Below, piece by piece: positions 15,431-64,000 of a stretch of 64,000 bases of DNA (position 1 is its first letter; every line of letters starts with the position of its first letter). The DNA is from Candidatus Poribacteria bacterium (lineage in GTDB: Bacteria; Poribacteria; WGA-4E; GCA-2687025). The DNA is taken from the NCBI GenBank assembly GCA_028818695.1, contig JAPPNK010000020.1:190632-254631 (forward strand), read 5' to 3'. A program made the translations under genes and the position numbers. Below the pieces are notes generated by a model. That model saw only the letters and a program-made list of their open reading frames with translations. It ran no database searches and was not told the origin of the DNA.

Positions 15431-16248
15431 CGGCTCGTTGAAAAGGCGGTTTCAATCGGCGCCGCCTCTTCGTAAGGGTCGGGCGGAAGTTGAAAGTTGC
15501 GTTCCAGCGCGCCGTTCTCTGACCATTGGACGAGCCGCCACAGGTTTGCGATTGTCCATTGGCGGAAACGGCGCGTCAGGATGCGCTCGGCGCAGGCGTT
15601 TTGAAGCCACCGGCGCGTCCATTCGGCGTCCGCCCCGATCCAACGCGCAAGCCGCTTTGCCCCGAACCGCTCCTTTAACATGCGTTGAGTTGCTCGGCTT
15701 TCGGTTCCGCGTTTCAGCAGCTCTAGCAGTGCGGAGGCGGCGCGCGCGTTCCGCGATTTGCCGTATAAGGCGCGCAGCGGCATCGGCTTTAAAAGGATGG
15801 GGCGGAACGGCATGCCCCATCCCTCGCGCCACTGAATGAATCGGCGGAAGGCGGGGAGCGGGACGAACCAGACAGCGGAGTCGCGCAGAGCCTCGACAGG
15901 AGAAGAATCGGCGGAACGGGCGGCGAGGCATGCGAGCAGATCTCCCGCTTCCGCGACCTGTATGCGCAGGTCTTCTTCGTTGCTGGGCGCGTCTGAGTCG
16001 GTCGCCGAGGGGGAGAGGTCAAGCCGTATGCGCCCCGTTTCGACGGCGCCGATCCAGTCGACGGGGCGGCCTTTGGGAGGGGGAGGTTGAAGCGGCTGTT
16101 TGGCGGCTGTTTCGACGCGCAGGGCGAGGCGCCGCCATTCGCGCATGTCATGCGGACGTATCCGCCGAAAAAACTGTGCGTCCTCTATGCGGCTCCACCG
16201 CGATAAACGCTCCGATGCGATGGGGGCTGTCGACGTTCGCGTTTTCAT
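15412..16248 (-). CDS. Hypothetical protein, Arg/Trp-rich
   Basis: 278 residues from the ATG at 16248, which overlaps the stop of the upstream WD40 gene (ATGA); an in-frame ATG at 16272 would overlap it by 28 bases. I do not recognise the family. The N-terminal third includes a proline-rich linker (QPLQPPPPKGRP); the C-terminal half is rich in Arg and Trp with helical stretches such as SALLELLKRGTESRATQRML and ERFGAKRLARWIG, resembling a helical DNA- or protein-binding domain. No signal peptide. It converges on the permease gene with a 19-bp overlap. Confidence 0.55.
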   Translation of the reverse strand: MKTRTSTAPIASERLSRWSRIEDAQFFRRIRPHDMREWRRLALRVETAAKQPLQPPPPKGRPVDWIGAVETGRIRLDLSPSATDSDAPSNEEDLRIQVAEAGDLLACLAARSADSSPVEALRDSAVWFVPLPAFRRFIQWREGWGMPFRPILLKPMPLRALYGKSRNARAASALLELLKRGTESRATQRMLKERFGAKRLARWIGADAEWTRRWLQNACAERILTRRFRQWTIANLWRLVQWSENGALERNFQLPPDPYEEAAPIETAFSTSRYDRSA

Positions 16249-18011
16249 GGGTTCATGTCGGAGAGGTCCCACAGGATGACAGTACCGTCGCTGCTGGCTG
16301 TCGCAAGCGTCTTGCCGTCCGGCGAATATCCCACCCAGTTCACATTGCCCGTATGCCCTTCAAGCGTTTTGAGAACGTCGCCGGTCTCCGCGTCCCAGAT
16401 GCGCGCCGCGCAGTCGGCGCCGCCGCTCGCGATTCTCATGCCGTCCGGCGAATAGACCGCACAGTTGACGCTGGCCGTATGCCCTTCAAGCGTTTTGAGA
16501 ACATCGCCGGTGTTGGCGTTCCAGATGCGAACGGTCTTGTCTCTGCTTGCGCTGACGATCCTTTTGCCGTCCGGCGCATACGCCGCCGATCGGACACTCC
16601 CCGAATATCCTTCAAGCGTTTTGAGCGGGGCCCCTGTCTCTGCGTCCCAGATTCGTATCGTACTATCGCCTGCGCTGACGATCCTTTTGCCGTCTGGGGA
16701 GTAGGCGGCCGAATTGACCGGCGAAAACCAATTTTTTCTACTCAACCTTCTATGGCCTTTAAGCGTATTGAGCAGCGCCCCAGTTTCAGCGTCCCATATC
16801 CGAACAAATCCGTTCCAGCCTGCGCTGACAAGGGTCCGCCCGTTTGGAGAAAACGACGCGGCGCCGATCCTATTCGCATCCCCCTTGACCGCTTTGAGAA
16901 GCGCGCCAGTTTCGGCGTCCACTATATGAAGATTCATATCGTCCTTAACGCCGACAATGCGCATGCCGTCCGGCGAATATGCCGCCATGTCCACGCGAGC
17001 CTCAGGATTTTGCAGCGTGTTGAGAAGCTCCCCAGTCTCGACGTCCCACACATGCAGATGTCCTTTGCGGTGGTATTTGACGACGATTCGTTTCCCGTCC
17101 GGCGAAAAAGAGGCAAAGTAAACTTGGCCTGTATGCCCCTCCATCGTACGGACAAGGGCGCTGATCTCTATGTTCCAAATGCGAATGAATCCGTTGCTTT
17201 CAGCGCCGGCGATAAAATGTCCGTCCGGCGAAAACGCGATCGAATCGCCGTCGAGACCTTTGTTATCGAGCGGCTGAAGAGGCGATCCGTAGGCGGCGCT
17301 CCACATCCGCAGTTTCGTAAATCCTCCGCCTGCGAGGATCCTCCCGTCCGGCGAAAACGCGACCGAATCGATCCAACGCGCGTCAAGAGTATGGAGCGCC
17401 TCGCCTGTTTGAGCGTCCCATATGCGAACCGTTTGTTTGTCGCTGCTGGCGATCATTTTTCCGTCCGGTGAATACGCCGCTGATCGGACGCTCTCCGTGT
17501 GTCCTTCAAGCGTTTTGAGAACCTCGCCTGTTTCAGCGTCCCAGATGTGAACTGTTTTATCCCAGCCGCCGCTGACGATTCTTTTTCCGTCCGGTGAATA
17601 CGCCGCCGATTGGACGCTCTCCGTATGTCCTTCAAGCGTCTTGAGTGTCTTTCCCGTCTCGGCGTCCCATATCCGAATCGTACTGTCCGAACTGGCGCTG
17701 ACGATTCTTTTTCCGTCCGGTGAATACGCCGCCGATCGGACGCTCCTCGTATGTCCTCGAAGCAGCGCGATTTCTCCGCCGAACCGCGCGTCGTATATCC
17801 AGACGCCAAGACTCCCTCCGACCGCGATTCGGGCGTTGTCGGGCGAGTAGGCGATCGAGTAGGTCAAGCCTTTGCCGATGCGCAGCTTGGCACCGTCGGG
17901 AAGGCCAAGGCTCGAGATCATTTCTGAAGGAAACGCTTTGAACGCGCATAGGATGAACAGGCATGCGCAGAGAGGATACAGCCTTCGTCTAACGCCGCGG
18001 GGATTGTTCAT
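16245..18011 (-). CDS. Secreted WD40-repeat protein, copy 1 (13 repeats)
   Basis: 588 residues: an N-terminal signal peptide (YPLCACLFILCAFKAFPS) and then 13 recognisable WD40 repeats of about 42 residues, most with the pattern SxAYSPDGKRIVSxSxDxTxRIWDAETG. The sister copies have 14, enough for two seven-bladed propellers, so one blade seems missing or degenerate here (a Trp/Phe insertion RRLSRKNWFSP lies before repeat 10). Probably a periplasmic or surface binding scaffold; partner unknown. It is the last of three tandem homologues and is followed with a 4-base overlap by the Arg/Trp-rich gene. Confidence 0.9.
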   Translation of the reverse strand: MNNPRGVRRRLYPLCACLFILCAFKAFPSEMISSLGLPDGAKLRIGKGLTYSIAYSPDNARIAVGGSLGVWIYDARFGGEIALLRGHTRSVRSAAYSPDGKRIVSASSDSTIRIWDAETGKTLKTLEGHTESVQSAAYSPDGKRIVSGGWDKTVHIWDAETGEVLKTLEGHTESVRSAAYSPDGKMIASSDKQTVRIWDAQTGEALHTLDARWIDSVAFSPDGRILAGGGFTKLRMWSAAYGSPLQPLDNKGLDGDSIAFSPDGHFIAGAESNGFIRIWNIEISALVRTMEGHTGQVYFASFSPDGKRIVVKYHRKGHLHVWDVETGELLNTLQNPEARVDMAAYSPDGMRIVGVKDDMNLHIVDAETGALLKAVKGDANRIGAASFSPNGRTLVSAGWNGFVRIWDAETGALLNTLKGHRRLSRKNWFSPVNSAAYSPDGKRIVSAGDSTIRIWDAETGAPLKTLEGYSGSVRSAAYAPDGKRIVSASRDKTVRIWNANTGDVLKTLEGHTASVNCAVYSPDGMRIASGGADCAARIWDAETGDVLKTLEGHTGNVNWVGYSPDGKTLATASSDGTVILWDLSDMNP

Positions 18012-18044
18012 GCTTCGTTCCCTTCTCGCCGTTGGATATGCGCA

Positions 18045-18548
18045 TCACAGGTCGGAGATGTCCCACAGGAGGACGGTACCGTCGTCGCTGGCTGTCGCAA
18101 GCGTCTTGCCGTCCGGCGAATATCCCACCCAGTTCACATCGCCCGTATGCCCTTCAAGCGTTTTGAGCAGAGCTCCTGTTTCTGCGTTCCAGATGCGCGC
18201 CATGCAGTCGTTGCCGCCGCTGGCGATTCTCTTGCCGTCCGGCGAAAACGCTGTCGATTGGACGCTCTCCGTATGGCCTGTGAGCATTTTGAGAAGCGCT
18301 CCGTTCTCCGAATTCCATATCCAGACGCTGCCGTTGCCGCTGCCGCTGACAATGCGCTTTCCGTCAGGTGAAAGAGAAACCGAATGGACAGCGGATTTAT
18401 GTTTGTCAAGCGTTTTGAGAAGCGCCTCGGTCTCAATATCCCATATGCGAACCGTCGAGTCCATGCCGGCGCTAACGACGCGCTTGCCATCCGGCGAAAA
18501 CTCTGCAGACATCACTGGTTTCGTATGCCCTTTGAGCGTGTTGAGCAT
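18045..18548 (-). pseudogene. 3' part of WD40 copy 2, separated by an amber stop
   Basis: This segment encodes the last four WD40 repeats of copy 2, in the same reading frame as the upstream part. The only interruption is the TAG at 18567-18569, where every neighbouring repeat has TGG for the Trp of the RIWD/RIWN motif. The first methionine after the stop is at 18548, with no ribosome-binding site, so independent expression is doubtful. It ends VNWVGYSPDGKTLATASDDG then a short tail, just like copies 1 and 3. The undamaged gene would run 18045-19922 and encode 625 residues. Confidence 0.8.
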
Positions 18549-18672
18549 GCCGCCTGTGTTTGCGTTCTATATGCGAACCGTCGAGTCCATGCTAGCGCTA
18601 ACGACGCGCTTGCCGTCCTGTGAAAACTCCACCGATAGGACCGGTTTCGTATGCCCTTTGAGCGTGTTGAGT
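18445..18672 (-). repeat. Near-identical adjacent WD40 blades (126-nt unit, two copies)
   Basis: Two neighbouring blades of copy 2 are nearly identical at DNA level: the block beginning ATGCGAACCGTCGAGTCCAT (plus strand) occurs at 18445 and again at 18571, exactly 126 nt (42 codons) apart, and similarity continues to the GTGTTGAG at the end of each unit. This points to a recent duplication of one blade. The premature TAG lies at the junction of the two units; the equivalent codon in the other unit (18441-18443) is an intact Trp codon. Confidence 0.8.
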
Positions 18673-19922
18673 ACCGTATCTGATTCGGGGCGCCAAATAT
18701 CGATAACCCCTACACGGCCTCCGCAATAGAGTTGATCGCGAGAAATTGCAAATCTTTCTCCGTCCGGCGAATACGCTGCAGATTTGGTGAAAATGTCCTT
18801 AAACGTTCTTTTGAGAAAGGTACCCGTTTCGATATCCCATATCTGCATATAGACTTGGGGCTTAAAGGCGATTCTCTTTCCGTCCGGCGAAAACGCGGCA
18901 AACTCAACGCTGTCCGTATGCCCGTTAATCGTACGGACGCGGGCGCCAATCTCTATATTCCAAATGCGAATGGCGCCGGCTCTTTCAGCGCCGGCGATAA
19001 AATGCCCGTCCGGCGAAAACGCGGCAGCTCTAACGCCATTGCCTCTGTTATCGAGACGGGGAAGAAGCGCGCCGCTTTTGGCGTTCAACATCTCCATATA
19101 AGAGAAAGATCCGCCAGCTATGATTCTCCCGTCCGGCGAATACGCTACCGACGTGAGTACTCTTACAATTGTTTTGAGCGGAGCGCCGGTCTCGGCGTCC
19201 CAGATGCGAACAGTCCGGTCTTTGTCGCAGCTGGCGATACGCATGCCGTCCGGAGAATAGGTTGTTGAATTGACCCTGTACGCATGTCCGTGGAGCGTTT
19301 TAAGCGGCGCGCCTGTCTCCGCGTCCCAGACGCGTACGGTCTTGTCTGCGCTTCCGCTGACGATGCGCCTGCCGTCAGGGGAAAACGCCGCCGAATGGAC
19401 GCCGCCTTCATGTTCGTTGAGCGTTTTGATCGTTTTGCCGGTCTCGGCGTCCCAAATCCGAATCGTTTTGTCCGCGCTTGCGGTGACGATCCGTTCGCTG
19501 TCCAGAGAATATGCCGCCGAATGGACGCTCTTCGTATGTCCAGTGAGCGTGTTGAGCGGGGCGCCTGTTTCGGCGTCCCAGACGCGTACGGTCTTATCCT
19601 CGCTGGCGCTGACGATTCTTTTTCCATCCGGCGAATACGCCGCCGATTGAACGCTCCTTGTATGTCCTCGAAGCAGCGCGATCTCCTTGCCGAACCGCAC
19701 GTCGTAGATCCAGACGCCAAGGCTACCGCCGACCGCGATTCGAGAGCTGTCGGGCGAGTAGGCGATCGAGCTGGTCCAGCCTCTGCCGATGCGCAGCTTG
19801 GCGCCGTCGGGAAGGCCGAGGCGCGAGACCATATCCGAAGGAAACGCTTTGAACGCGCATAGGATGAACAAGCATGCGCAGAGAGGATACAGCCTTCGTC
19901 TAACGCCGCGGGGATTGTTCAT
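18567..19922 (-). CDS. Secreted WD40-repeat protein, copy 2, truncated by in-frame TAG
   Basis: 451 residues: the same signal peptide as copy 1 (MNNPRGVRRRLYPLC at the start) and the first nine and a half WD40 repeats, ending in ASMDSTVRI just before an amber codon. The next codons continue the repeat without a frame change. With the 3' part, 14 repeats (two seven-blade propellers) would be restored. The start at 19922 matches copy 1; an upstream in-frame ATG at 19976 overlaps copy 3. A truncated product would have an incomplete second propeller and is unlikely to fold fully. Confidence 0.85.
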   Translation of the reverse strand: MNNPRGVRRRLYPLCACLFILCAFKAFPSDMVSRLGLPDGAKLRIGRGWTSSIAYSPDSSRIAVGGSLGVWIYDVRFGKEIALLRGHTRSVQSAAYSPDGKRIVSASEDKTVRVWDAETGAPLNTLTGHTKSVHSAAYSLDSERIVTASADKTIRIWDAETGKTIKTLNEHEGGVHSAAFSPDGRRIVSGSADKTVRVWDAETGAPLKTLHGHAYRVNSTTYSPDGMRIASCDKDRTVRIWDAETGAPLKTIVRVLTSVAYSPDGRIIAGGSFSYMEMLNAKSGALLPRLDNRGNGVRAAAFSPDGHFIAGAERAGAIRIWNIEIGARVRTINGHTDSVEFAAFSPDGKRIAFKPQVYMQIWDIETGTFLKRTFKDIFTKSAAYSPDGERFAISRDQLYCGGRVGVIDIWRPESDTVLNTLKGHTKPVLSVEFSQDGKRVVSASMDSTVRI

Positions 19923-19954
19923 TCTTGGCTCTCTTCTCGCGGTTGGTTTGCGCA

Positions 19955-21814
19955 TCACAGGTCGGAGACATCCCACAGGATAACAGTGCCGTCGTTGCTG
20001 GCGCTTGCCAGCGTCTTGCCGTCCGATGAATAGCCGACCCAGTTCACCTCATCCATATGCCCCTCAAACGTTTTGAGAACAGCCCCGGTCTCCGCGTCCC
20101 AGACGTGAACGGCTCTGTCCGCGCCCCCGCTGGCGATGCGCCTGCCGTCCGGCGAATACGCCGCTGAATGCGCATACGGTTGATGCCCCTCCAGCTTTTT
20201 GAGCAATCTGCCGGTCTTCGCGTCCCATATCCAGACGATGCCGTCGCCGCTGACGCTGACAATGCGCGCGTCGTCCGGCGAAAAGGACGCCGAATGGACG
20301 ATAGACGTATGCTCCGCAAGCATTCTGCGCGGCGCGCCTGTCTTGGCGTCCCAAATGCGAGCTGTCCCGTCCCAGCTGGCGGTGACGATTTGGCTTCCGT
20401 CTGACGAGTAAGCCGCTGTCTGTATAGGCTTTGAGTGGCCGATCAGCGCGAGCCGCTGCCCGCCCGTATTTACATCCCAGATGAGAACCATATTGCCGTA
20501 GCTGTGGGAAAGAATGCTCAATCCGTCTGGGGAAAAGGATGCAGAATAGATCTTCGTATGCCCCATCATCGTATGGAGCGTCTCGCCCGTTTCAGCGTCC
20601 CATAGGTGGATCTTCTTATAACTGACGCCGGCAATTGTCTTTGCGTCTGGAGAATACGCCGCCGATTCAATGTAGCCGACCTGATGGGATTTGAGAATAT
20701 CCCCAGTCTCAACATCCCATATCTGCAGGCGGTCCCGCATCTTAACGGCGATTCTTTCCCCGTCCGGCGAAAAGGCGGCTGACTCCATATTATTCGGATG
20801 CCCCTCAATTGAACGCGCAGGAGCTCCGATTTCGAGGTTCCAAACGCGAATGGGTCCGTTTTCCGCGACAGCAATGAAATGACCGTCAGGGCTAAAGGCG
20901 AACGCATAAGCGTTGTCGTGAATATCCTCAAACGGAGGCAGCGGCGCTCCGCTCACGGCGTTCCACAGCGACAGATCAAACCCGTCGCATACCGCAAGAA
21001 TCCTTCCGTTCAGGGAATACGCCATCGAAAGGACTCTCCTGGAATATCCAATCGGAGGGTTGGGCGGGGGGCGCTCCGAAAAACGACCCGATTCTTTGTC
21101 AATATCCCATATCCGCGCCCCGTCCACGCCGCCGCTGGCAACGCTCTTGCCGTTCGGCGAATACGTTGCCGAATAGACCTCTTTGGTATGCCCAGTCAAC
21201 GTGTTGAGCGGCGCGCCGCTCTCGGCGTCCCAGATGCGAACCGTCTGATCGCCGCTTCCGCTGACGACGCGCATGCCGTCCGGCGAAAAGGACGCCGAAT
21301 GGACGTCGCCTTCATGTCCGTTGAGCGTTTTGATCGTCTTGCCGGTCTCGGCGTCCCAGATGCGAATCGCGTCGTCCCAGCTGGCGGTGACGATGCGTTT
21401 GCCGTCCGGAGAATAGGCGGCGGACGCGACTCGATCGGCATGCCCTGTGAGCATTTTGATCGTCTTGCCGGTCTCGGCGTCCCAGACGCGCGCCGTTTTG
21501 TCCGCGCTCCCGCTGACGATGCGCTTGCCGTCCGGAGAATAGGCAGCTGAAACGACCTTCTCCGTATGCCCTTGAAGCAGCGCGATCTCCTTGCCGAACC
21601 GCGCGTCGTAGATCCAGACGCCGAGGCTCCCCGCCGCTAAAAGGCGCGAGCTGTCCGGAGAATAGGCAAGCGATTTGATGTCGCCTCTGCCGATGCGCAG
21701 CTTGGCGCCTTCAGGGAGGCCGAGGCGCGAAACCTTTCCTGAAGGCGAAGAGAACGCTTTGAATGCGCATAGGATGAAAAGGCATGCGCAGAGAGAATGT
21801 AGATGAAGTTTCAT
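19955..21814 (-). CDS. Secreted WD40-repeat protein, copy 3 (14 repeats)
   Basis: 619 residues, intact. Signal peptide (SLCACLFILCAFKAFSS) followed by 14 WD40 repeats, which matches two seven-bladed beta-propellers. Repeats 2-4 and 11-14 are close to consensus (SAAYSPDGKRIVSGSADKTA); the central ones are more diverged, with one longer loop rich in proline near residue 230. AGGAG lies 6 bases before the ATG. First gene of the tandem WD40 cluster: copies 2 and 1 follow at 32- and 33-bp spacing, so co-transcription is likely. Role unknown; exported protein-binding scaffold is inferred from the fold. Confidence 0.92.
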   Translation of the reverse strand: MKLHLHSLCACLFILCAFKAFSSPSGKVSRLGLPEGAKLRIGRGDIKSLAYSPDSSRLLAAGSLGVWIYDARFGKEIALLQGHTEKVVSAAYSPDGKRIVSGSADKTARVWDAETGKTIKMLTGHADRVASAAYSPDGKRIVTASWDDAIRIWDAETGKTIKTLNGHEGDVHSASFSPDGMRVVSGSGDQTVRIWDAESGAPLNTLTGHTKEVYSATYSPNGKSVASGGVDGARIWDIDKESGRFSERPPPNPPIGYSRRVLSMAYSLNGRILAVCDGFDLSLWNAVSGAPLPPFEDIHDNAYAFAFSPDGHFIAVAENGPIRVWNLEIGAPARSIEGHPNNMESAAFSPDGERIAVKMRDRLQIWDVETGDILKSHQVGYIESAAYSPDAKTIAGVSYKKIHLWDAETGETLHTMMGHTKIYSASFSPDGLSILSHSYGNMVLIWDVNTGGQRLALIGHSKPIQTAAYSSDGSQIVTASWDGTARIWDAKTGAPRRMLAEHTSIVHSASFSPDDARIVSVSGDGIVWIWDAKTGRLLKKLEGHQPYAHSAAYSPDGRRIASGGADRAVHVWDAETGAVLKTFEGHMDEVNWVGYSSDGKTLASASNDGTVILWDVSDL

Positions 21815-41279: not shown

Positions 41280-41918
41280 TCACCGATCGATCGCTTCTCC
41301 GTTCGAAAGCGTGATCGGATGCTGCGTTTCCGACATCGGTATGCGCCGCGCGCGCGCCAGCACATTCGGGGTCGCCCACTCCCGAACGGGAATGTCGTTG
41401 AGGAACGGTTTCATGGCGTTCAACAGATCCAGATATTCTGTTTGCAGCTTCCCGAAGGTTTCTTCTACAGCAGTTGTTTGCGCCCATTGTTCAGCCTTTT
41501 TATCGCGCGTCAAGCCCAAGTGTTCGACTACACGGGGGTTTTTTTCGAGCAAGGCGTTATACGCCGCAAAAACCTCTTCAGGAGCCCCCTGCGCCTTATA
41601 CTTGTCGTACGCCAGCCCCGCCAGCTCGGCGTAGGCGTCCATCGCGTCTTCCCAGCTTTGAAAATTGTATTGAACAGCCGCGCTTTCCGTCTCCGCGGGA
41701 GCTTCTTCTGTCTCCGCGGCTTCAGCGGCAGCCTCAAGCGCCTCTTGAGGCGGCGTCTGAACGGACGTGAAAGAATAGGCGGATGTTGGCGACTCGTCGA
41801 TAAGCATAAAGAGCTCCTCACCGCGCTCCGTACCGCCGCGCTGTAAGACCCAGACGACTGCCGCCAGCAAGCAGTAGAGAGAAAAGGTCAGGAGGATTCG
41901 ATACGGTTTCATTTTCAT
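41280..41918 (-). CDS. Membrane-anchored protein of unknown function, 3' end frameshifted
   Basis: 212 residues from ATG 41918 (AGGAG about 9 bases upstream). One N-terminal membrane helix (ILLTFSLYCLLAAVVWVL), then an Ala/Glu-rich linker and a helical domain (SWEDAMDAYAELAGLAYDKY, LLEKNPRVVEHLGLTRDKK). The frame stops at 41280 after NGEAIDR, but another frame continues at once with VIYQLGDEDDPGFEEIVMDL and ends at 41188. This reads like the missing C terminus, so a single-base deletion near the GATCGATC at 41284-41291 is likely. Not a recognised family. It follows ftsX by about 130 bp. Confidence 0.65.
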   Translation of the reverse strand: MKMKPYRILLTFSLYCLLAAVVWVLQRGGTERGEELFMLIDESPTSAYSFTSVQTPPQEALEAAAEAAETEEAPAETESAAVQYNFQSWEDAMDAYAELAGLAYDKYKAQGAPEEVFAAYNALLEKNPRVVEHLGLTRDKKAEQWAQTTAVEETFGKLQTEYLDLLNAMKPFLNDIPVREWATPNVLARARRIPMSETQHPITLSNGEAIDR

Positions 41919-42049
41919 TTGCGTCAGCTCCTTTTGATCGCTTCGTTTTGCGCTGCCCCGCCATGCATGTTTTACAGTACTTGATGCGTATGCTGCAACT
42001 GCAACGCGCTTTTTTCGCTGTATGCGCGAATTTTGATTGAGAGCGGCGG

Positions 42050-42901
42050 CTAATTCATCGCCCGAATATGCTTGCGGAGAGGCGCCATACCCGCCAGCAT
42101 CCCGACGAGCGTCGCCCCCGCCGCCACGATTCCCATCTGCTCCGGCTTTAAAAAAGATGTGAAGCCTATAGACGCTCCGTATTGCCAATAAAGTCCGTAC
42201 AAGATCAGCATGCCCAGCCCGCTCCCAAACAGCCCCTCCAGCAAACCTTGCAGCAGCAGCGGGATGCGGATATAGCCGTATGTCGCGCCCAAGAGGCGCA
42301 GAATCGCGATCTCCTCACGCCGGGCGTATACGGTCAGCATGATCGAAAACGCGATGACGACCATCGAGACGGCAGCGATCAAGCCGCCCAGCAGGAACGC
42401 GACCCGCTTCATCTTGTCCAGCTGCTCCATCGCCTCGTTCTCAAAGACGACATCCTCAACGCCCTCCAGCTGTTTCATCTCCTCCGCCATTTTACGCATC
42501 GATTCAGCGTTTCGGTACTCCTCGCCCGCAAACGCCTCAATCGCGACCGGGAACGGGTTCTCTTCAAACCCTTGGAGCATCAGGACGCTGTCGTCTCCGA
42601 ACATTTTTTGGCCTCTCTGGAGCGCCTCGTCTTTCCAGACGATGTGCGTTCGTTCGACCGACTCCATCGCCAGGATCGTCTTTTCCAGCTGCTTGACCTC
42701 CTCTTCGGAGAGCTCGTCCATGATGAAGGCGGCCGCGCCCGCGTTCTTTTCAAACTGCGCCGCCTCCGCATAGACGGCGTTCCGCACCAGATAGAGCGAG
42801 CTGAAAAGCGCCGCTGTGAGCGCGACGATGACGACCGCCAGCAAGCTTACGACGCCGCCATGGCGCACATTTAATAATGCCTCGCGAAAGAGGCGCATCA
42901 T
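42050..42901 (-). CDS. ftsX: Cell-division ABC transporter permease FtsX
   Basis: 283 residues with the FtsX layout: cytoplasmic N terminus, helix 1 (VVSLLAVVIVALTAALFSSLY), a periplasmic loop of about 120 residues (with EENPFPVAIEAFAGEEYRN), then three helices near the C terminus (VAFLLGGLIAAVSMVVIAFSIML, IRIPLLLQGLLEGLFGSGLGM). The segment ARREEIAILRLLGATYGYIR precedes the fold that contacts FtsE. With FtsE it transmits ATP hydrolysis to periplasmic amidase activators during division. ATGA overlap with ftsE. The final residues RKHIRAMN end at the membrane. Confidence 0.93.
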   Translation of the reverse strand: MMRLFREALLNVRHGGVVSLLAVVIVALTAALFSSLYLVRNAVYAEAAQFEKNAGAAAFIMDELSEEEVKQLEKTILAMESVERTHIVWKDEALQRGQKMFGDDSVLMLQGFEENPFPVAIEAFAGEEYRNAESMRKMAEEMKQLEGVEDVVFENEAMEQLDKMKRVAFLLGGLIAAVSMVVIAFSIMLTVYARREEIAILRLLGATYGYIRIPLLLQGLLEGLFGSGLGMLILYGLYWQYGASIGFTSFLKPEQMGIVAAGATLVGMLAGMAPLRKHIRAMN

Positions 42902-59537: not shown

Positions 59538-59588
59538 CATTCCCGCCCGGCATGACCCCTCAATTGCGGCGAAGCGCGGAATTTGGAA

Positions 59589-59602
59589 AAATAGCGCTAA
59601 AA
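59589..59602 (+). promoter_or_regulatory. Conserved upstream element of fused sigma copy 1
   Basis: AAATAGCGCTAAAA, containing the palindrome TAGCGCTA, lies exactly 60 nt before the copy 1 ATG. The identical 14-mer stands exactly 60 nt before copy 2, although the sequence between 59603 and 59630 differs. Candidate -10 element or operator. Confidence 0.5.
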
Positions 59603-59630
59603 TTGAAGCGGGAACTGCCACAAAAGAGCT

Positions 59631-60040
59631 GAACGAAAGGAGCGCTGAATGAACGACCGACCGCTAAGCGACTTCGACGCGACGGTTCTTGGGCAGATGG
59701 GGCATATCCGCGCCGTCGGCAGAAAGCAGCTGCGCAACCAGAACGAGCTGGACGACTTCGTCCAAGAGACGGTGGCGCGCGTCTATGCGAACCGCGCTCA
59801 ACTGCGCGATCCCGCCAAGCTGAAGCAGTGGATCGCGGGCATCGCGCGGAACACGGCGAACGAGATGAACCGCGCCGGCTTCCGCAAACGCGAAGAGCCG
59901 CTGCCGGAAGAGGACGATCTGCCGGACATGCGCAACCCGCATGACGAGCTGGAACGGGCGGAACGGAACGACCAGATACGCCAAGCGATGAACAGACTGA
60001 ACCCGATCGACCGCGACCTGCTGCAGGGGCGGTATATGGA
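59631..60040 (+). repeat. 410-bp perfect duplication, copy A (sigma module)
   Basis: This segment is identical, base for base, to 61101-61510, including the ribosome-binding site and nearly all of sigma regions 2 to 4. Downstream of 60040 the two copies start to differ, and beyond about 60200 similarity falls steeply. Perfect identity in one block between otherwise diverged genes suggests recent gene conversion. Confidence 0.95.
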
Positions 60041-61010
60041 GGAGGAGTCTTACGCCGATCTTCAGGAGCGGCATGGGCTGTCCTATTCGGCGGTCGGGTT
60101 CCGACTGCATCGCGCGAAACGTCAGCTTCGGAAGTTGTTGACAGGAATGAAGGTCGCGTTGGCATTGGCGCTCGCCAACATGAAACAAACAGCATTTGGA
60201 GGAGTGCTTCTCATGACAAACACGACCAAGATCGCTCTCGGAACGGCGTCGGCTCTCATTCTCGCCCTGCTGGGCGGATACCTGTGGCTCGAATACGGCG
60301 GTTCATCGGACGATTCGGCGCGCGGGCTGACGGTTGAGGAGCAGTCGCCGATTGTTAATGCCCGCGGCGCCAATGACAGCGCCGATTCTTCAGCCGAAAC
60401 GGAAACGGCCGGCGGAATCGAAGCCGCGCAGACTCCTGAAACGCCCTCAACCGGCAAAAGCGGCGAGACGGTTGATGCGAACGCCGCCTCCGCCGGCGAG
60501 GCTGTGAGCGTCAACGCGCCCGACGCCTTTTCAACCGAATTTCAAGAGGCGGTTGAAGAACTGAACGACTTCGCGAAAAAGCTGCAGGCGGAATTTCCCG
60601 AATTCAGCGGCGTGACGAAAATGGCGGTTGAGATGGGGGACGCCCTTCTGAAGCGCGAAGCGGAATTGCGTCAACAGGGAATGACCGCCGAAGAACGCAA
60701 AACGCAGCTGCGCGAACAATATCAGACCGCTTCTAAGAGCTTCTCAGACAGCTTCATGGATCCAATGGTCAAAGGAACCATTCATGATCCATTGGAGAGC
60801 TCCGACCCAGTGGCTGCGTTCCGACAACACGCAGATAAGTTGCGCGCTTTAATTCGGTTCATGGCTGAGAACCAGCCCAAAAAGATGGAAACCGTTCTTG
60901 GACTTCCAACAAGCGATGTGTCGATGGATGAGATTGATGCCGTCTTCAGCGATCTCGATTCGTTCATCATTGACGCTCCCATGCCGGCGGTGGAGCCGGA
61001 GGACCGGTAA
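59649..61010 (+). CDS. Fused ECF sigma factor-membrane helix-exported domain protein, copy 1
   Basis: 453 residues. Sigma-70 region 2 spans about residues 5-80 (ELDDFVQETVARVYANRA, KQWIAGIARNTANEMNR) and region 4 about 115-170 (MNRLNPIDRDLLQGRYMEEE, HGLSYSAVGFRLHRAKRQ). A membrane helix follows (LGTASALILALLGGYLWLEY), then a Ser/Glu/Ala/Pro linker and an exported helical domain with QGMTAEERKTQLREQYQ and VLGLP. Sigma thus stays tethered to the membrane unless cut. An internal GGAGGAG plus in-frame ATG at 60213 could also start a separate 265-residue membrane protein. AAAGGAG is 7 bases before the main ATG. Confidence 0.88.
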   Translation: MNDRPLSDFDATVLGQMGHIRAVGRKQLRNQNELDDFVQETVARVYANRAQLRDPAKLKQWIAGIARNTANEMNRAGFRKREEPLPEEDDLPDMRNPHDELERAERNDQIRQAMNRLNPIDRDLLQGRYMEEESYADLQERHGLSYSAVGFRLHRAKRQLRKLLTGMKVALALALANMKQTAFGGVLLMTNTTKIALGTASALILALLGGYLWLEYGGSSDDSARGLTVEEQSPIVNARGANDSADSSAETETAGGIEAAQTPETPSTGKSGETVDANAASAGEAVSVNAPDAFSTEFQEAVEELNDFAKKLQAEFPEFSGVTKMAVEMGDALLKREAELRQQGMTAEERKTQLREQYQTASKSFSDSFMDPMVKGTIHDPLESSDPVAAFRQHADKLRALIRFMAENQPKKMETVLGLPTSDVSMDEIDAVFSDLDSFIIDAPMPAVEPEDR

Positions 61011-61034
61011 GAGTTCGTTGTTCGGCAAATTTTG

Positions 61035-61049
61035 TTGACGCCGCGTCAA
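61035..61049 (+). promoter_or_regulatory. Palindromic -35/operator region before sigma copy 2
   Basis: TTGACGCCGCGTCAA is a perfect inverted repeat with a three-base centre. Its left arm TTGACG could act as a -35 box for the AAATAG at 61059, 18 bp away, and the palindrome could bind a regulator. Confidence 0.4.
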
Positions 61050-61058
61050 GCCGCATGC

Positions 61059-61072
61059 AAATAGCGCTAAAA
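61059..61072 (+). promoter_or_regulatory. Conserved upstream element of fused sigma copy 2
   Basis: Same 14-mer AAATAGCGCTAAAA as upstream of copy 1 and at the same distance (60 nt) from the start codon. Confidence 0.5.
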
Positions 61073-61100
61073 ACCCAAAGGGCATCGCCACAACCGAACC

Positions 61101-61510
61101 GAACGAAAGGAGCGCTGAATGAACGACCGACCGCTAAGCGACTTCGACGCGACGGTTCTTGGGCAGATGGGGCATATCCGCGCCGTCGGCAGAAAGCAGC
61201 TGCGCAACCAGAACGAGCTGGACGACTTCGTCCAAGAGACGGTGGCGCGCGTCTATGCGAACCGCGCTCAACTGCGCGATCCCGCCAAGCTGAAGCAGTG
61301 GATCGCGGGCATCGCGCGGAACACGGCGAACGAGATGAACCGCGCCGGCTTCCGCAAACGCGAAGAGCCGCTGCCGGAAGAGGACGATCTGCCGGACATG
61401 CGCAACCCGCATGACGAGCTGGAACGGGCGGAACGGAACGACCAGATACGCCAAGCGATGAACAGACTGAACCCGATCGACCGCGACCTGCTGCAGGGGC
61501 GGTATATGGA
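61101..61510 (+). repeat. 410-bp perfect duplication, copy B (sigma module)
   Basis: Identical to 59631-60040 at an offset of 1470 bp. The first mismatch downstream is at 61511. Confidence 0.95.
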
Positions 61511-62375
61511 AGAGGAGTCTTACGCCGATCTTCAGGAGCGGCATGGGCTGTCCTACTCGGCGGTCGGGTTTCGACTGCATCGCGCGAAGCGTCGGCTTCG
61601 GAAATTGCTGACTGGAATGAAGGTCGCGTTGGCATTGGCGCTCTCCAACATGAAACGAACAGCATTTGGAGGAATGCCCATCATGACCAAAACGACCAAG
61701 ATCGTTCTCGGAGTTGCGTCGGCTCTCATTCCCGCCTTGCTGGGCGGGTATCTGTGGATCGAATACGGCGATTCGCCGGACGATTCGGCGCGCGAGCTGA
61801 CGGTTGAGGAGCCCAGGCTGACGGCTGAGGAGCAGTCGCCGATCGTCAAGCAGAAATCTGCTGAAACGCCAAAGCAAACCGCCGAAGAAACCTCTGCGCC
61901 GGAGCGGCAAGAGGAAATGCGCGTTTTTGGAGATTCGATCGCTTCTGAAGAGTCTGCCGCCCGATCTGACGGCAGCGAAAGCGTCGGCACAACGCAGCCC
62001 GACGCCCTGCAAGCCGCTCCGCAAGACCTGTTCACCGTCGAACTTCAGGAGGGGGTCAGCGAGTTTAAGGAGGTGTACCAGCGTCTTGTTGAATTGCATC
62101 CAGGTCCGAGGGCAACCTACATCGCAGCTCTGCATAATGAAGTTGTCGACAGCATGATGGAATACAATGAGGAGCTGCAAGATCAAAACTTGGAGCGCGC
62201 GGAACGCGCCGCCAGACTTGCCGCCCGCCTCCTTGAGACCGCGCAGCGGTTGGAGCCGCAGTACACCGCGATGCTGGCCAAAATACACCCTGAAGAAAAG
62301 AAAGCGTACGCTCAATTCATTAAAAACAACACGCCCCGCAAACTGTTCGTTTTTCTCGGGTTGCTGCCTGAATAA
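61119..62375 (+). CDS. Fused ECF sigma factor-membrane helix-exported domain protein, copy 2
   Basis: 418 residues. The sigma part is identical in protein sequence to copy 1 through region 4 apart from late changes. The membrane helix is LGVASALIPALLGGYLWIEY, with a proline where copies 1 and 3 have leucine. The exported domain differs from copy 1 but keeps the same order of features: a low-complexity linker, a FTVELQEGVSEFKEVYQRL block, an RAERAARLAARLL block in place of TAEER, and a terminal RKLFVFLGLLPE. The internal GGAGGA and ATG are at 61668 and 61683. Sigma 2 and 1 probably recognise the same promoters but could sense different signals (inference). Confidence 0.88.
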   Translation: MNDRPLSDFDATVLGQMGHIRAVGRKQLRNQNELDDFVQETVARVYANRAQLRDPAKLKQWIAGIARNTANEMNRAGFRKREEPLPEEDDLPDMRNPHDELERAERNDQIRQAMNRLNPIDRDLLQGRYMEEESYADLQERHGLSYSAVGFRLHRAKRRLRKLLTGMKVALALALSNMKRTAFGGMPIMTKTTKIVLGVASALIPALLGGYLWIEYGDSPDDSARELTVEEPRLTAEEQSPIVKQKSAETPKQTAEETSAPERQEEMRVFGDSIASEESAARSDGSESVGTTQPDALQAAPQDLFTVELQEGVSEFKEVYQRLVELHPGPRATYIAALHNEVVDSMMEYNEELQDQNLERAERAARLAARLLETAQRLEPQYTAMLAKIHPEEKKAYAQFIKNNTPRKLFVFLGLLPE

Positions 62376-62542
62376 AGCTGTTTTCAGCGCCGCGGGCGGG
62401 GGACCTCAAACGGCGTTCCCTGCCCTGCTGCGCCAATCACTTTATGGATGTCGCCGCGGTGAAGGCAGTCTCTACAGACGACGATGTACGAAATCTTGTT
62501 CAAATCGGACGGTATTCGCTAAAGCCATCTTTCCGCCCTTAG

Positions 62543-62559
62543 CCCGCCGCGCAGGCGGG
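62543..62559 (+). terminator. Possible Rho-independent terminator after sigma copy 2
   Basis: CCCGCC-GCGCA-GGCGGG forms a 6-bp GC stem with a 5-base loop, followed by AATCTTTTCC. The T-run is weak and interrupted, and the hairpin lies about 170 bp beyond the copy 2 stop. Confidence 0.4.
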
Positions 62560-62652
62560 AATCTTTTCCCAACAGCGCAAATAGACGCAATTGCATGTAA
62601 AATCTCCGGAAGGAACTCCACATGTATATTGTATAGCGAAGGGAGCGGCGCC

Positions 62653-63888
62653 TTGAAAGATCAACCACTGACGGACTTCGACAAGACGGTTCTGGAGCAA
62701 ATGGAGCGGATACGCGCCATCGGCAGACGCAAACTGCGCAACCAGGGCGAACTGGATGACTTCGTCCAAGAAACGGTCGCGCGGGCATACGCTAACCGCG
62801 CCAAGTTGCGCAATCCCGCCAAGTTGAAGCAGTGGATCTACGGCATCGCGCGCAACACGGCGAGCGAATGGAACCGCGTCCATGAACGCTGGAACAGCAA
62901 GCGTCAGACGCTGGACGAAGCCGAAGCGGCGAACATGCCGCATCCGCTCACCGCGCTTGAACAGGCGGAGAGCAACGAACAGATACGGCAGGCGTTAGAC
63001 AAACTGAACCCGATCGACCGCGACCTGCTGCGCGGGCGGTTTATGGACGAAGAGACGTATGAGGCGCTACAGAAGCGGCATGGGCTTTCCTATTCGGCGG
63101 TTGGGATACGGCTGCATCGCGCGAAGCGTCGGCTTCGGAAGTTGTTGACCGGAATAAAGGTCGCGTTGGCATTGGCGCTCGCCAGCATGAAACGAACAGC
63201 ATTTGGAGGAGTGCTTCTCATGACCAAAACGACCAAGATCGTTCTCGGAGTCGCGTCCGCTCTCATTCTCGCCTTGCTGGGCGGGTACCTGTGGATCGAA
63301 TACGACGGTTCGCCGGACGATTCGGAGCGCGGGCTGACGGTTGAGGAGCAATCGCCGCGCATTGAACAGAACTCTGATGGAGCGTCAGATCAAACCGCCG
63401 ACGAAATCTCTGCGCCGGCGCCGCAAGAGGAAACATCCGCCTCTGATGAGTCCGCTGTCGAAGTATCTGCCGTCTTTTCTGACGACAGCGAGAGCGCCGG
63501 CGCGACGCAGCCCGACGCCCCGCAAGTCTCTCCGCAAGATCCGTTCACGCTGGAGCTTCAGGAGGGGATAGATGAGCTGAACGAGCTTGCTGACCAATTT
63601 GTTCAGCAGTTTCCAAGTTCGATAGCGGCCGATCTGGCGGATATTTTAGTAGGGATCGGGAGAGATCTGATAAAATATGACGAGGAGCTCCGCGGGGAGT
63701 ACTTCACTCGAGAGGAGCGGACCGCCAAACTGCGCGCGTTTTGGCTAGAGTCCATACATCCGGCGACCGAATACTACAATGCCGTCACAACAGAATATTT
63801 AGAATCTGAAATAAAAAACGCGATGGATCAGTTCTTTAATAACAGCGCGCTTCATAAACTGGGCGCGCTTCTCGGATTGCCCAATTAA
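62653..63888 (+). CDS. Fused ECF sigma factor-membrane helix-exported domain protein, copy 3
   Basis: 411 residues from TTG 62653, with GGAG seven bases upstream and the same N-terminal pattern as copies 1 and 2 (MKDQPLTDFDKTVLEQM). Sigma region 2 (ELDDFVQETVARAYANRAKL) and region 4 (LNPIDRDLLRGRFMDEETYE, GLSYSAVGIRLHRAKRRL) are complete but more diverged. Membrane helix LGVASALILALLGGYLWIEY; exported domain with FTLELQEGIDELNELADQF, EYFTREERTAKLRAFWLES and HKLGALLGLPN. GGAGGAG at 63205 precedes the in-frame ATG at 63220. GGAACT at 62612 resembles an ECF -35, so self-regulation is possible. Confidence 0.87.
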   Translation: MKDQPLTDFDKTVLEQMERIRAIGRRKLRNQGELDDFVQETVARAYANRAKLRNPAKLKQWIYGIARNTASEWNRVHERWNSKRQTLDEAEAANMPHPLTALEQAESNEQIRQALDKLNPIDRDLLRGRFMDEETYEALQKRHGLSYSAVGIRLHRAKRRLRKLLTGIKVALALALASMKRTAFGGVLLMTKTTKIVLGVASALILALLGGYLWIEYDGSPDDSERGLTVEEQSPRIEQNSDGASDQTADEISAPAPQEETSASDESAVEVSAVFSDDSESAGATQPDAPQVSPQDPFTLELQEGIDELNELADQFVQQFPSSIAADLADILVGIGRDLIKYDEELRGEYFTREERTAKLRAFWLESIHPATEYYNAVTTEYLESEIKNAMDQFFNNSALHKLGALLGLPN

Positions 63889-63902: not shown

Positions 63903-64000
63903 ATGCGTCTCAACATCATTCTCGCCGTTTTTTGAGCCTGTTGTCTTGAACCGTCATCGCCGGCGGCTCTGGCGATGAACCTCAAACAGGCTTCCATTGC
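63903..64000 (+). pseudogene. Start of an exported protein gene, interrupted by TGA, cut by the window end
   Basis: AAAGGA sits before ATG 63903. Ten codons (MRLNIILAVF) end at TGA 63933-63935, but the same frame continues ACCLEPSSPAALAMNLKQAS, completing a standard signal peptide with an AxA cleavage site. A Trp codon mutated to TGA is the simplest reading. Alternatively a short leader peptide is followed by a start at ATG 63975. The gene runs off the window. Confidence 0.45.

Follow-up and report, generated by a model that had tools for sequence, protein, structure and literature searches.

Extracytoplasmic function (ECF) sigma factors are canonically paired with a separate membrane anti-sigma protein, and an envelope signal leads to the release of the sigma factor, often with autoregulation. 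One-chain variants of this scheme have been described. The fusion nearest to those analyzed here that has been studied experimentally is IutY (ECF243) of Pseudomonas putida, in which a periplasmic domain is joined through one membrane helix to an ECF sigma; the membrane-tethered sigma is freed by two proteases, Prc and RseP (PMC5411451). Tethering with proteolytic release has been proposed for ECF48, ECF52 and ECF53, which carry a C-terminal extension with a membrane helix and, in SCO4117 of Streptomyces, a domain outside the membrane (PMC8999054, PMC5826349). Several proteins may also arise from one gene by means of an internal second start, as reported for spa33 of Shigella (PMC6925163). Here we analyze three neighboring genes in a 64,000-nt stretch, further referred to as the window, of contig JAPPNK010000020.1 from a Candidatus Poribacteria genome (assembly GCA_028818695.1). 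Each gene encodes an ECF sigma, one membrane helix and an exported domain in a single chain. We interpret them, with moderate confidence, as membrane-anchored sigma factors having a second translation start at the boundary between the sigma and membrane parts. The three genes and their parts are on the forward strand.

The comparison with the described systems reveals both likeness and difference. In IutY the exported part acts as an anti-sigma domain together with the outer-membrane receptor IutA, whereas the Poribacteria fusions carry several unrelated folds; moreover, unlike IutY, they occur in a dozen copies with a conserved internal start and a shared promoter. ECF48, ECF52 and ECF53 are actinobacterial and have a zinc-finger domain before the helix, while none was detected in the window fusions, and the internal start predicted here is not described for them in the cited passages. 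In contrast to the canonical pairs of two proteins, the anti-sigma domain zf-HC2 has no match in the whole genome. As for spa33, the likeness consists in several proteins from one gene, the two products being only predicted in our case. The locus had been put forward in an earlier note as a candidate for an undescribed regulatory system. The tether itself is not new, because IutY is proteolytically released and ECF48, ECF52 and ECF53 are thought to behave similarly. In the open-licence literature searched, we found no report of a second start in a sigma factor gene; sensor exchange on a uniform sigma and a promoter confined almost entirely to a dozen fusions were not found described there either.

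Architecture and spread of the fusions

The reading frames of the three genes are open and intact at 59649–61010 (gene 1, 453 aa), 61119–62375 (gene 2, 418 aa) and 62653–63888 (gene 3, 411 aa). Gene 3 most likely starts at the TTG codon at 62653, where a Shine-Dalgarno (SD) sequence is present; the listed 573-aa open reading frame (ORF) merely opens at an earlier ATG. Sigma70_r2 and Sigma70_r4/r4_2 from Pfam score above the cut-off in all three proteins, which also match TIGR02937 from NCBIfam (E from 1e-19 to 1e-21) and have the recognition-helix block LSYSAVG(F/I)RLHRAK in common. A hydropathy scan places a single membrane helix at approximately residues 194–214 in genes 1 and 2 (60228–60290 and 61698–61760) and at the equivalent place in gene 3 (63229–63291, corresponding to helix 3–29 of the structure model). 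The exported domains, delimited by alignment, occupy 60522–61007 in gene 1 and 62025–62372 in gene 2; in gene 3 (63541–63885) the model contains five predicted helices with the predicted local distance difference test score (pLDDT) mostly above 90. Each gene thus has the parts listed in the earlier note: sigma regions 2 and 4, followed in the same chain by a single membrane helix and the exported domain. The C-terminal parts of the three proteins have no convincing match in Pfam or NCBIfam. No zinc-finger anti-sigma domain was matched by Pfam between the sigma and the helix in these proteins; FecR has no match in them at E up to 1 and is not among the families listed for 16 members of the set. 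ARAGORN calls a tRNA-SeC at 60029–60115, within the sigma coding region of gene 1. This call is probably false, because none was made in the 98% identical gene 2.

The three genes stand as described, but the array does not end with them. Directly downstream of gene 3 there is the start of a broken sigma-free relative (63903–63935), which reads MRLNIILAVF and then a stop codon, and two intact sigma-free genes follow beyond the window edge (C21:254726 and 255546, where C21 is the contig of the window).

The genome examined comprises 3.57 Mb and is 91% complete. It contains 12 intact fusions: the three in the window, four in tandem on contig C19, two on C35, and one on each of C2, C3 and C9. Fusion of a sigma to its own membrane sensor had been considered rare; within this genome it is common, accounting for 12 of the 26 matches to the sigma-70/ECF model. 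The query matched 55 of the 58 relatives in the class, the most distant matches covering the sigma part only. At the loci inspected in the relatives, the sigma is fused to C-terminal extensions, most of them with a membrane helix; short sigma ORFs in genome G004 (contigs C380 and C175) end at contig edges. Given the 12 intact paralogs and similar fusions across the class, an assembly or frameshift artifact is ruled out. The recurrence of this architecture is far beyond chance.

There is also a degenerate fusion at C26:273163–273745 (L040, L219), approximately 1 kb after purC. It has kept the promoter and a DnaJ_C-like exported part, and its membrane helix is disrupted. In two genomes of family f1 and one of family f6, an ECF sigma is fused in frame to PurC, the SAICAR synthetase (L073:1321–2826, L086:1168–2673, L228). 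The sigma-PurC fusions of the f1 genomes have GGAGG and ATG at the joint, and genomes G005 and G022 possess a separate normal purC besides the fusion.

The junction between the sigma and membrane parts

At the boundary between sigma and helix, the genes share the layout GGA GGA, nine bases, and an in-frame ATG. In gene 1 this element spans 60198–60215 (GGAGGA at 60198–60203, ATG at 60213–60215), in gene 2, 61668–61685 (ATG at 61683–61685), and in gene 3, 63205–63222 (ATG at 63220–63222). The 16S rRNA of this genome ends with ACCTCCTTT. GGAGGA is found at the junction of 11 of the 12 fusions, one fusion having three extra spacer bases. In distant families the junction peptide is SGGLTAMK or GGVVMK, again encoded with GGAGG and ATG.

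The codons used at the junction differ from those at comparable positions. The first glycine of the junction pair is encoded by GGA in 11 of 12 fusions, compared with 2 of the 28 glycine pairs elsewhere in the same genes (Fisher's test, 4e-7), where the first codon is GGC in 25 of 28. When this genome is compared with distant families, the same glycine ranks first of 35 four-fold degenerate columns by codon identity. We also applied synonymous recoding. Since it was not significant gene by gene, a pooled test with controls was used. For 30–32 representatives the junction yields z of about −6 (−6.0 for 30 fusions less than 60% identical), while control windows range from +0.2 to +2.7, with averages of +1.2 to +1.4. 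These tests show that the junction SD with its in-frame start is conserved beyond the constraint imposed by the coding sequence.

Such an element could have a function other than initiation. An SD at the junction may slow ribosomes, allowing time for sigma folding or helix targeting, with no second protein made. In E. coli, programmed pauses of translation have been suggested to take part in the targeting of membrane proteins (PMC4359368), and the junction element lies just upstream of the sole membrane helix. However, a start codon is needless for a pause, and yet when the strongest SD of each fusion was picked irrespective of start codons, 47 of 60 fusions had an in-frame start codon after it, and 2 and 3 had out-of-frame ones. 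In the three cases noted where the ATG has been lost (L036 among the fusions of this genome, and L095 and L104), the replacement is GTG. Finally, two sigma-free relatives start at the ATG equivalent to the internal ATG of the fusions. A pause without a second product is thus an improbable reading. The conserved junction start and the use of the same ATG by sigma-free relatives therefore lead to the prediction of two products per gene: each gene probably makes a tethered sigma-sensor plus a sigma-free membrane protein.

Exported segments and their exchange between copies

The exported domains of the three window genes were earlier described as diverged homologs, and the alignment supports this. 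The shared layout was confirmed in part: the ELQE and EER-xx-LR blocks are real, and the terminal LGLP is only the majority form, K213 and L218 alone being invariant in the terminal motif. The domain is nearly private to this genome. Weak homologs in two f6 genomes (G022:C57 and G061:C71; E 2.5e-6) were set aside, as they may reflect coiled-coil similarity only.

The structure model of gene 3 from the internal methionine onward consists of a helix, a disordered linker and a high-confidence helical bundle. The earlier note read such domains as envelope chaperone sensors of the Spy/CpxP type, and indeed the domain is helical and its EER-xx-LR block recalls the LTxxQ pattern. Nevertheless, even with E-values up to 1 allowed, none of the three window proteins matches LTXXQ, nor does this family appear in the list of 25 obtained for the 16 members, where Pfam provides no convincing family for the exported domain. 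The helical bundle has no structural match above the background for helical bundles; a Spy-type cradle is absent from the listed matches, although the listing does not exclude it. Sister fusions, moreover, carry other folds. We consider kinship with Spy/CpxP highly improbable.

The other folds are found mainly on contig C19. Three of its fusions share a domain modeled with a predicted template modeling score (pTM) of 0.70 and resembling NTF2-like proteins. Most of the 50 listed VIA matches are NTF2-like or include a domain of this kind (best Z 8.9 over 99 residues, root mean square deviation 3.6), and the best Foldseek E-value is 0.01. According to the model, the exported domain of these three fusions, and only of these, is an NTF2-like cone. 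One C19 fusion contains a DnaJ_C-like segment with E 1e-4, below the cut-off. The linker motif EQSP(R) is present in most fusions of this genome regardless of the exported domain, as well as in sigma-free relatives. Therefore the chassis is constant and the outside part varies.

Pairwise identities differ between the segments of the same protein. The sigma DNA of gene 1 is 98% identical to that of gene 2, 97% to the copy on C2, and 78% to gene 3. The exported domain of gene 2, in turn, is 69% identical to a sigma-free protein encoded on C13 and 64% to the sigma-free neighbor; its seven closest relatives do not include gene 1. In gene 3 compared with the sigma-free neighbor, the helix and linker are 82% identical, and the exported domain, 32%. 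Given these conflicting identities, the sigma, the helix with the linker, and the exported domain have separate histories. The alignments thus show that these segments have been exchanged between copies.

The exported domain without a sigma is encoded elsewhere by a tandem of six genes on C13 and by three genes on C26. Contig C13 also encodes tandem proteins (L032:3456–12266) that combine copies of related domains with a helix at the C-terminus; several of them have a signal peptide. These tandem proteins belong to the same domain family and are predicted to be anchored from the opposite end. The abundance of sigma-free relatives with the same exported domain, together with the persistence of the degenerate fusion on C26, agrees with the notion that the exported protein is the main product and the sigma is a leader, retained for its promoter or to couple translation, that is losing its function. 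On the contrary, curated models recognize sigma regions 2 and 4 in the copies tested, and even at 78% sigma DNA identity the recognition helix has hardly changed, which makes a decaying leader very unlikely.

The promoter-like element and the proposed mechanism

A CAAAATAGCGCTAAAAT-like sequence precedes the start by 39–49 nt in the 12 fusions, followed 14 nt later by CNWCAW. The fusion on C3 is an exception, as its CAAAATAGCGCTAAAAT-like sequence lies 67 nt ahead of the start and a second, degenerate copy is nearer to it. In the window, the predicted promoter of gene 1 is at 59587–59623 (box 1 AAAAATAGCGCTAAAAT at 59587–59603; CTAAAAT-N14-CCACAA at 59597–59623), that of gene 2 at 61057–61093 (box 1 GCAAATAGCGCTAAAAA at 61057–61073; two-box match at 61067–61093), and that of gene 3 at 62588–62623 (CAATTGCATGTAAAAT; two-box match GTAAAAT-N14-CCACAT at 62597–62623).

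The pattern STAAAAW-N14-CNWCAW has 19 matches genome-wide versus 7 for the reversed control. Twelve of the 19, including the one at the degenerate fusion, precede sigma-fusion genes, box 2 ending 19–30 nt before the start; the other seven precede no convincing gene, and their number equals the control count. The element was not seen upstream of the sigma-free relatives. A matrix built from the 12 sites of this genome detects the element before fusions of distant families, mostly at 48–50 nt, with z 11.4; z is 7.4 for other genera within the family and 0.5 for other window genes. A related pattern yields 12 matches versus 2 in the control in three distant genomes, 8 of the 12 being located before sigma-fusion genes, one of which is a sigma-PurC fusion. 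These counts show that the two-box element is conserved and, in this genome, nearly private to the fusions. We predict it to be an autoregulated ECF promoter, presumably read by these sigmas; a shared promoter read by its own sigma is the usual ECF pattern. The proposal of one shared sigma output made in the earlier note is plausible, given the 98% identity of the sigma DNA of genes 1 and 2, the common recognition helix and the same two-box promoter.

Several other matches were observed. An exact box 1, the only one in this genome not preceding a sigma fusion, lies 47 nt before a gene for a 287-aa exported protein at C23:23176 (L182, L201). It is the single candidate for a further regulon member in this genome and has box 1 only, since its box 2 is not convincing. 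Two of the matches in the distant genomes precede exported propeller-like genes without a sigma, at a distance of about 133 nt from the longest ORF (L233 and L229; G022:C89:52034 and G034:C119:70400); these genes are possible regulon members. The box 1 look-alike CAAAACGGCTCTAAAAT was discarded as part of an unrelated intergenic repeat. This repeat (L169, L171, L174–L177) combines a GCGAAAGCGGGAATCCAGA-like sequence with CAAAAC(A/G)GCTCTAAAAT and is present in at least six copies in the genome.

The model that we favor is as follows. The full-length product would consist of a sigma in the cytoplasm (regions 2 and 4), a single helix, a disordered EQSP(R) linker and the exported domain, and the sigma is predicted to be inactive while held at the membrane. 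Upon an envelope signal sensed by the exported domain, the chain would be cleaved, presumably by a site-1 protease and then by a membrane-embedded site-2 protease of the M50 family, whose members are encoded in the genome. The sigma freed by cleavage would read the two-box promoter of the fusion genes, and one activated sensor would thus raise the whole set. From the same transcript, the internal SD with ATG or GTG would yield the anchor and exported domain without the sigma; this product may be an effector, a decoy damping the signal, or both. In this scheme we infer the inactivity of the tethered sigma, its cleavage, the internal initiation and the recognition of the promoter by these sigmas.

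Several observations weigh against this model. No cleavage site, site-1 protease or inhibitory contact between the sigma and the linker was identified. With the 4 representatives of this genome alone, the recoding signal is weak (z −1.7, p 0.05), and the strength of the junction test comes from pooled relatives, which are not fully independent. The junction SD is weak in some fusions of related genera (L078, L106), and family f2 (L108, L109) has none. A separate regulator of the shared promoter would also fit.

Release itself might be dispensable if the sigma worked while anchored, the exported domain switching it allosterically; ToxR and CadC are known as one-piece membrane transcription regulators. 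Consistent with this, no cleavage site has emerged, no zinc-finger anti-sigma domain was detected between the sigma and the helix, and the short basic segment leading from region 4 to the helix could pass on a conformational change. Nonetheless, the linker is predicted to be disordered, which suits cleavage better than rigid coupling, M50 proteases are present in this genome, and in IutY the sigma is set free by Prc and RseP (PMC5411451). We regard an anchored, uncleaved sigma as rather unlikely.

Beyond the cleavage model, we tentatively suggest that a single ORF with two starts may serve as a stress circuit comprising sensor, transcription factor and effector. The sigma would mainly activate its own fusion family, multiplying the sensors and the sigma-free exported proteins of many folds, and new inputs would be acquired by exchange of exported segments while the sigma remains uniform. 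If so, Poribacteria have replaced the two-protein scheme of sigma and anti-sigma by one-gene modules in a dozen parallel pathways, which share a promoter and swap sensors. This would add a layer to sigma factor biology, two products per gene, not reported in the open-licence literature. The predicted promoter sequence and the predicted internal start make both ideas testable.

Two further observations concern other parts of the window. Three WD40-repeat proteins, encoded in tandem at 16245–21814, seem to have arisen by recent duplication. The protein encoded at 41280–42188 (QSWEDAMDAYAELA) is similar to an exported protein encoded on contig C26 (KDWEAALDYWANLV; L174), and the two perhaps represent another expanded exported family.

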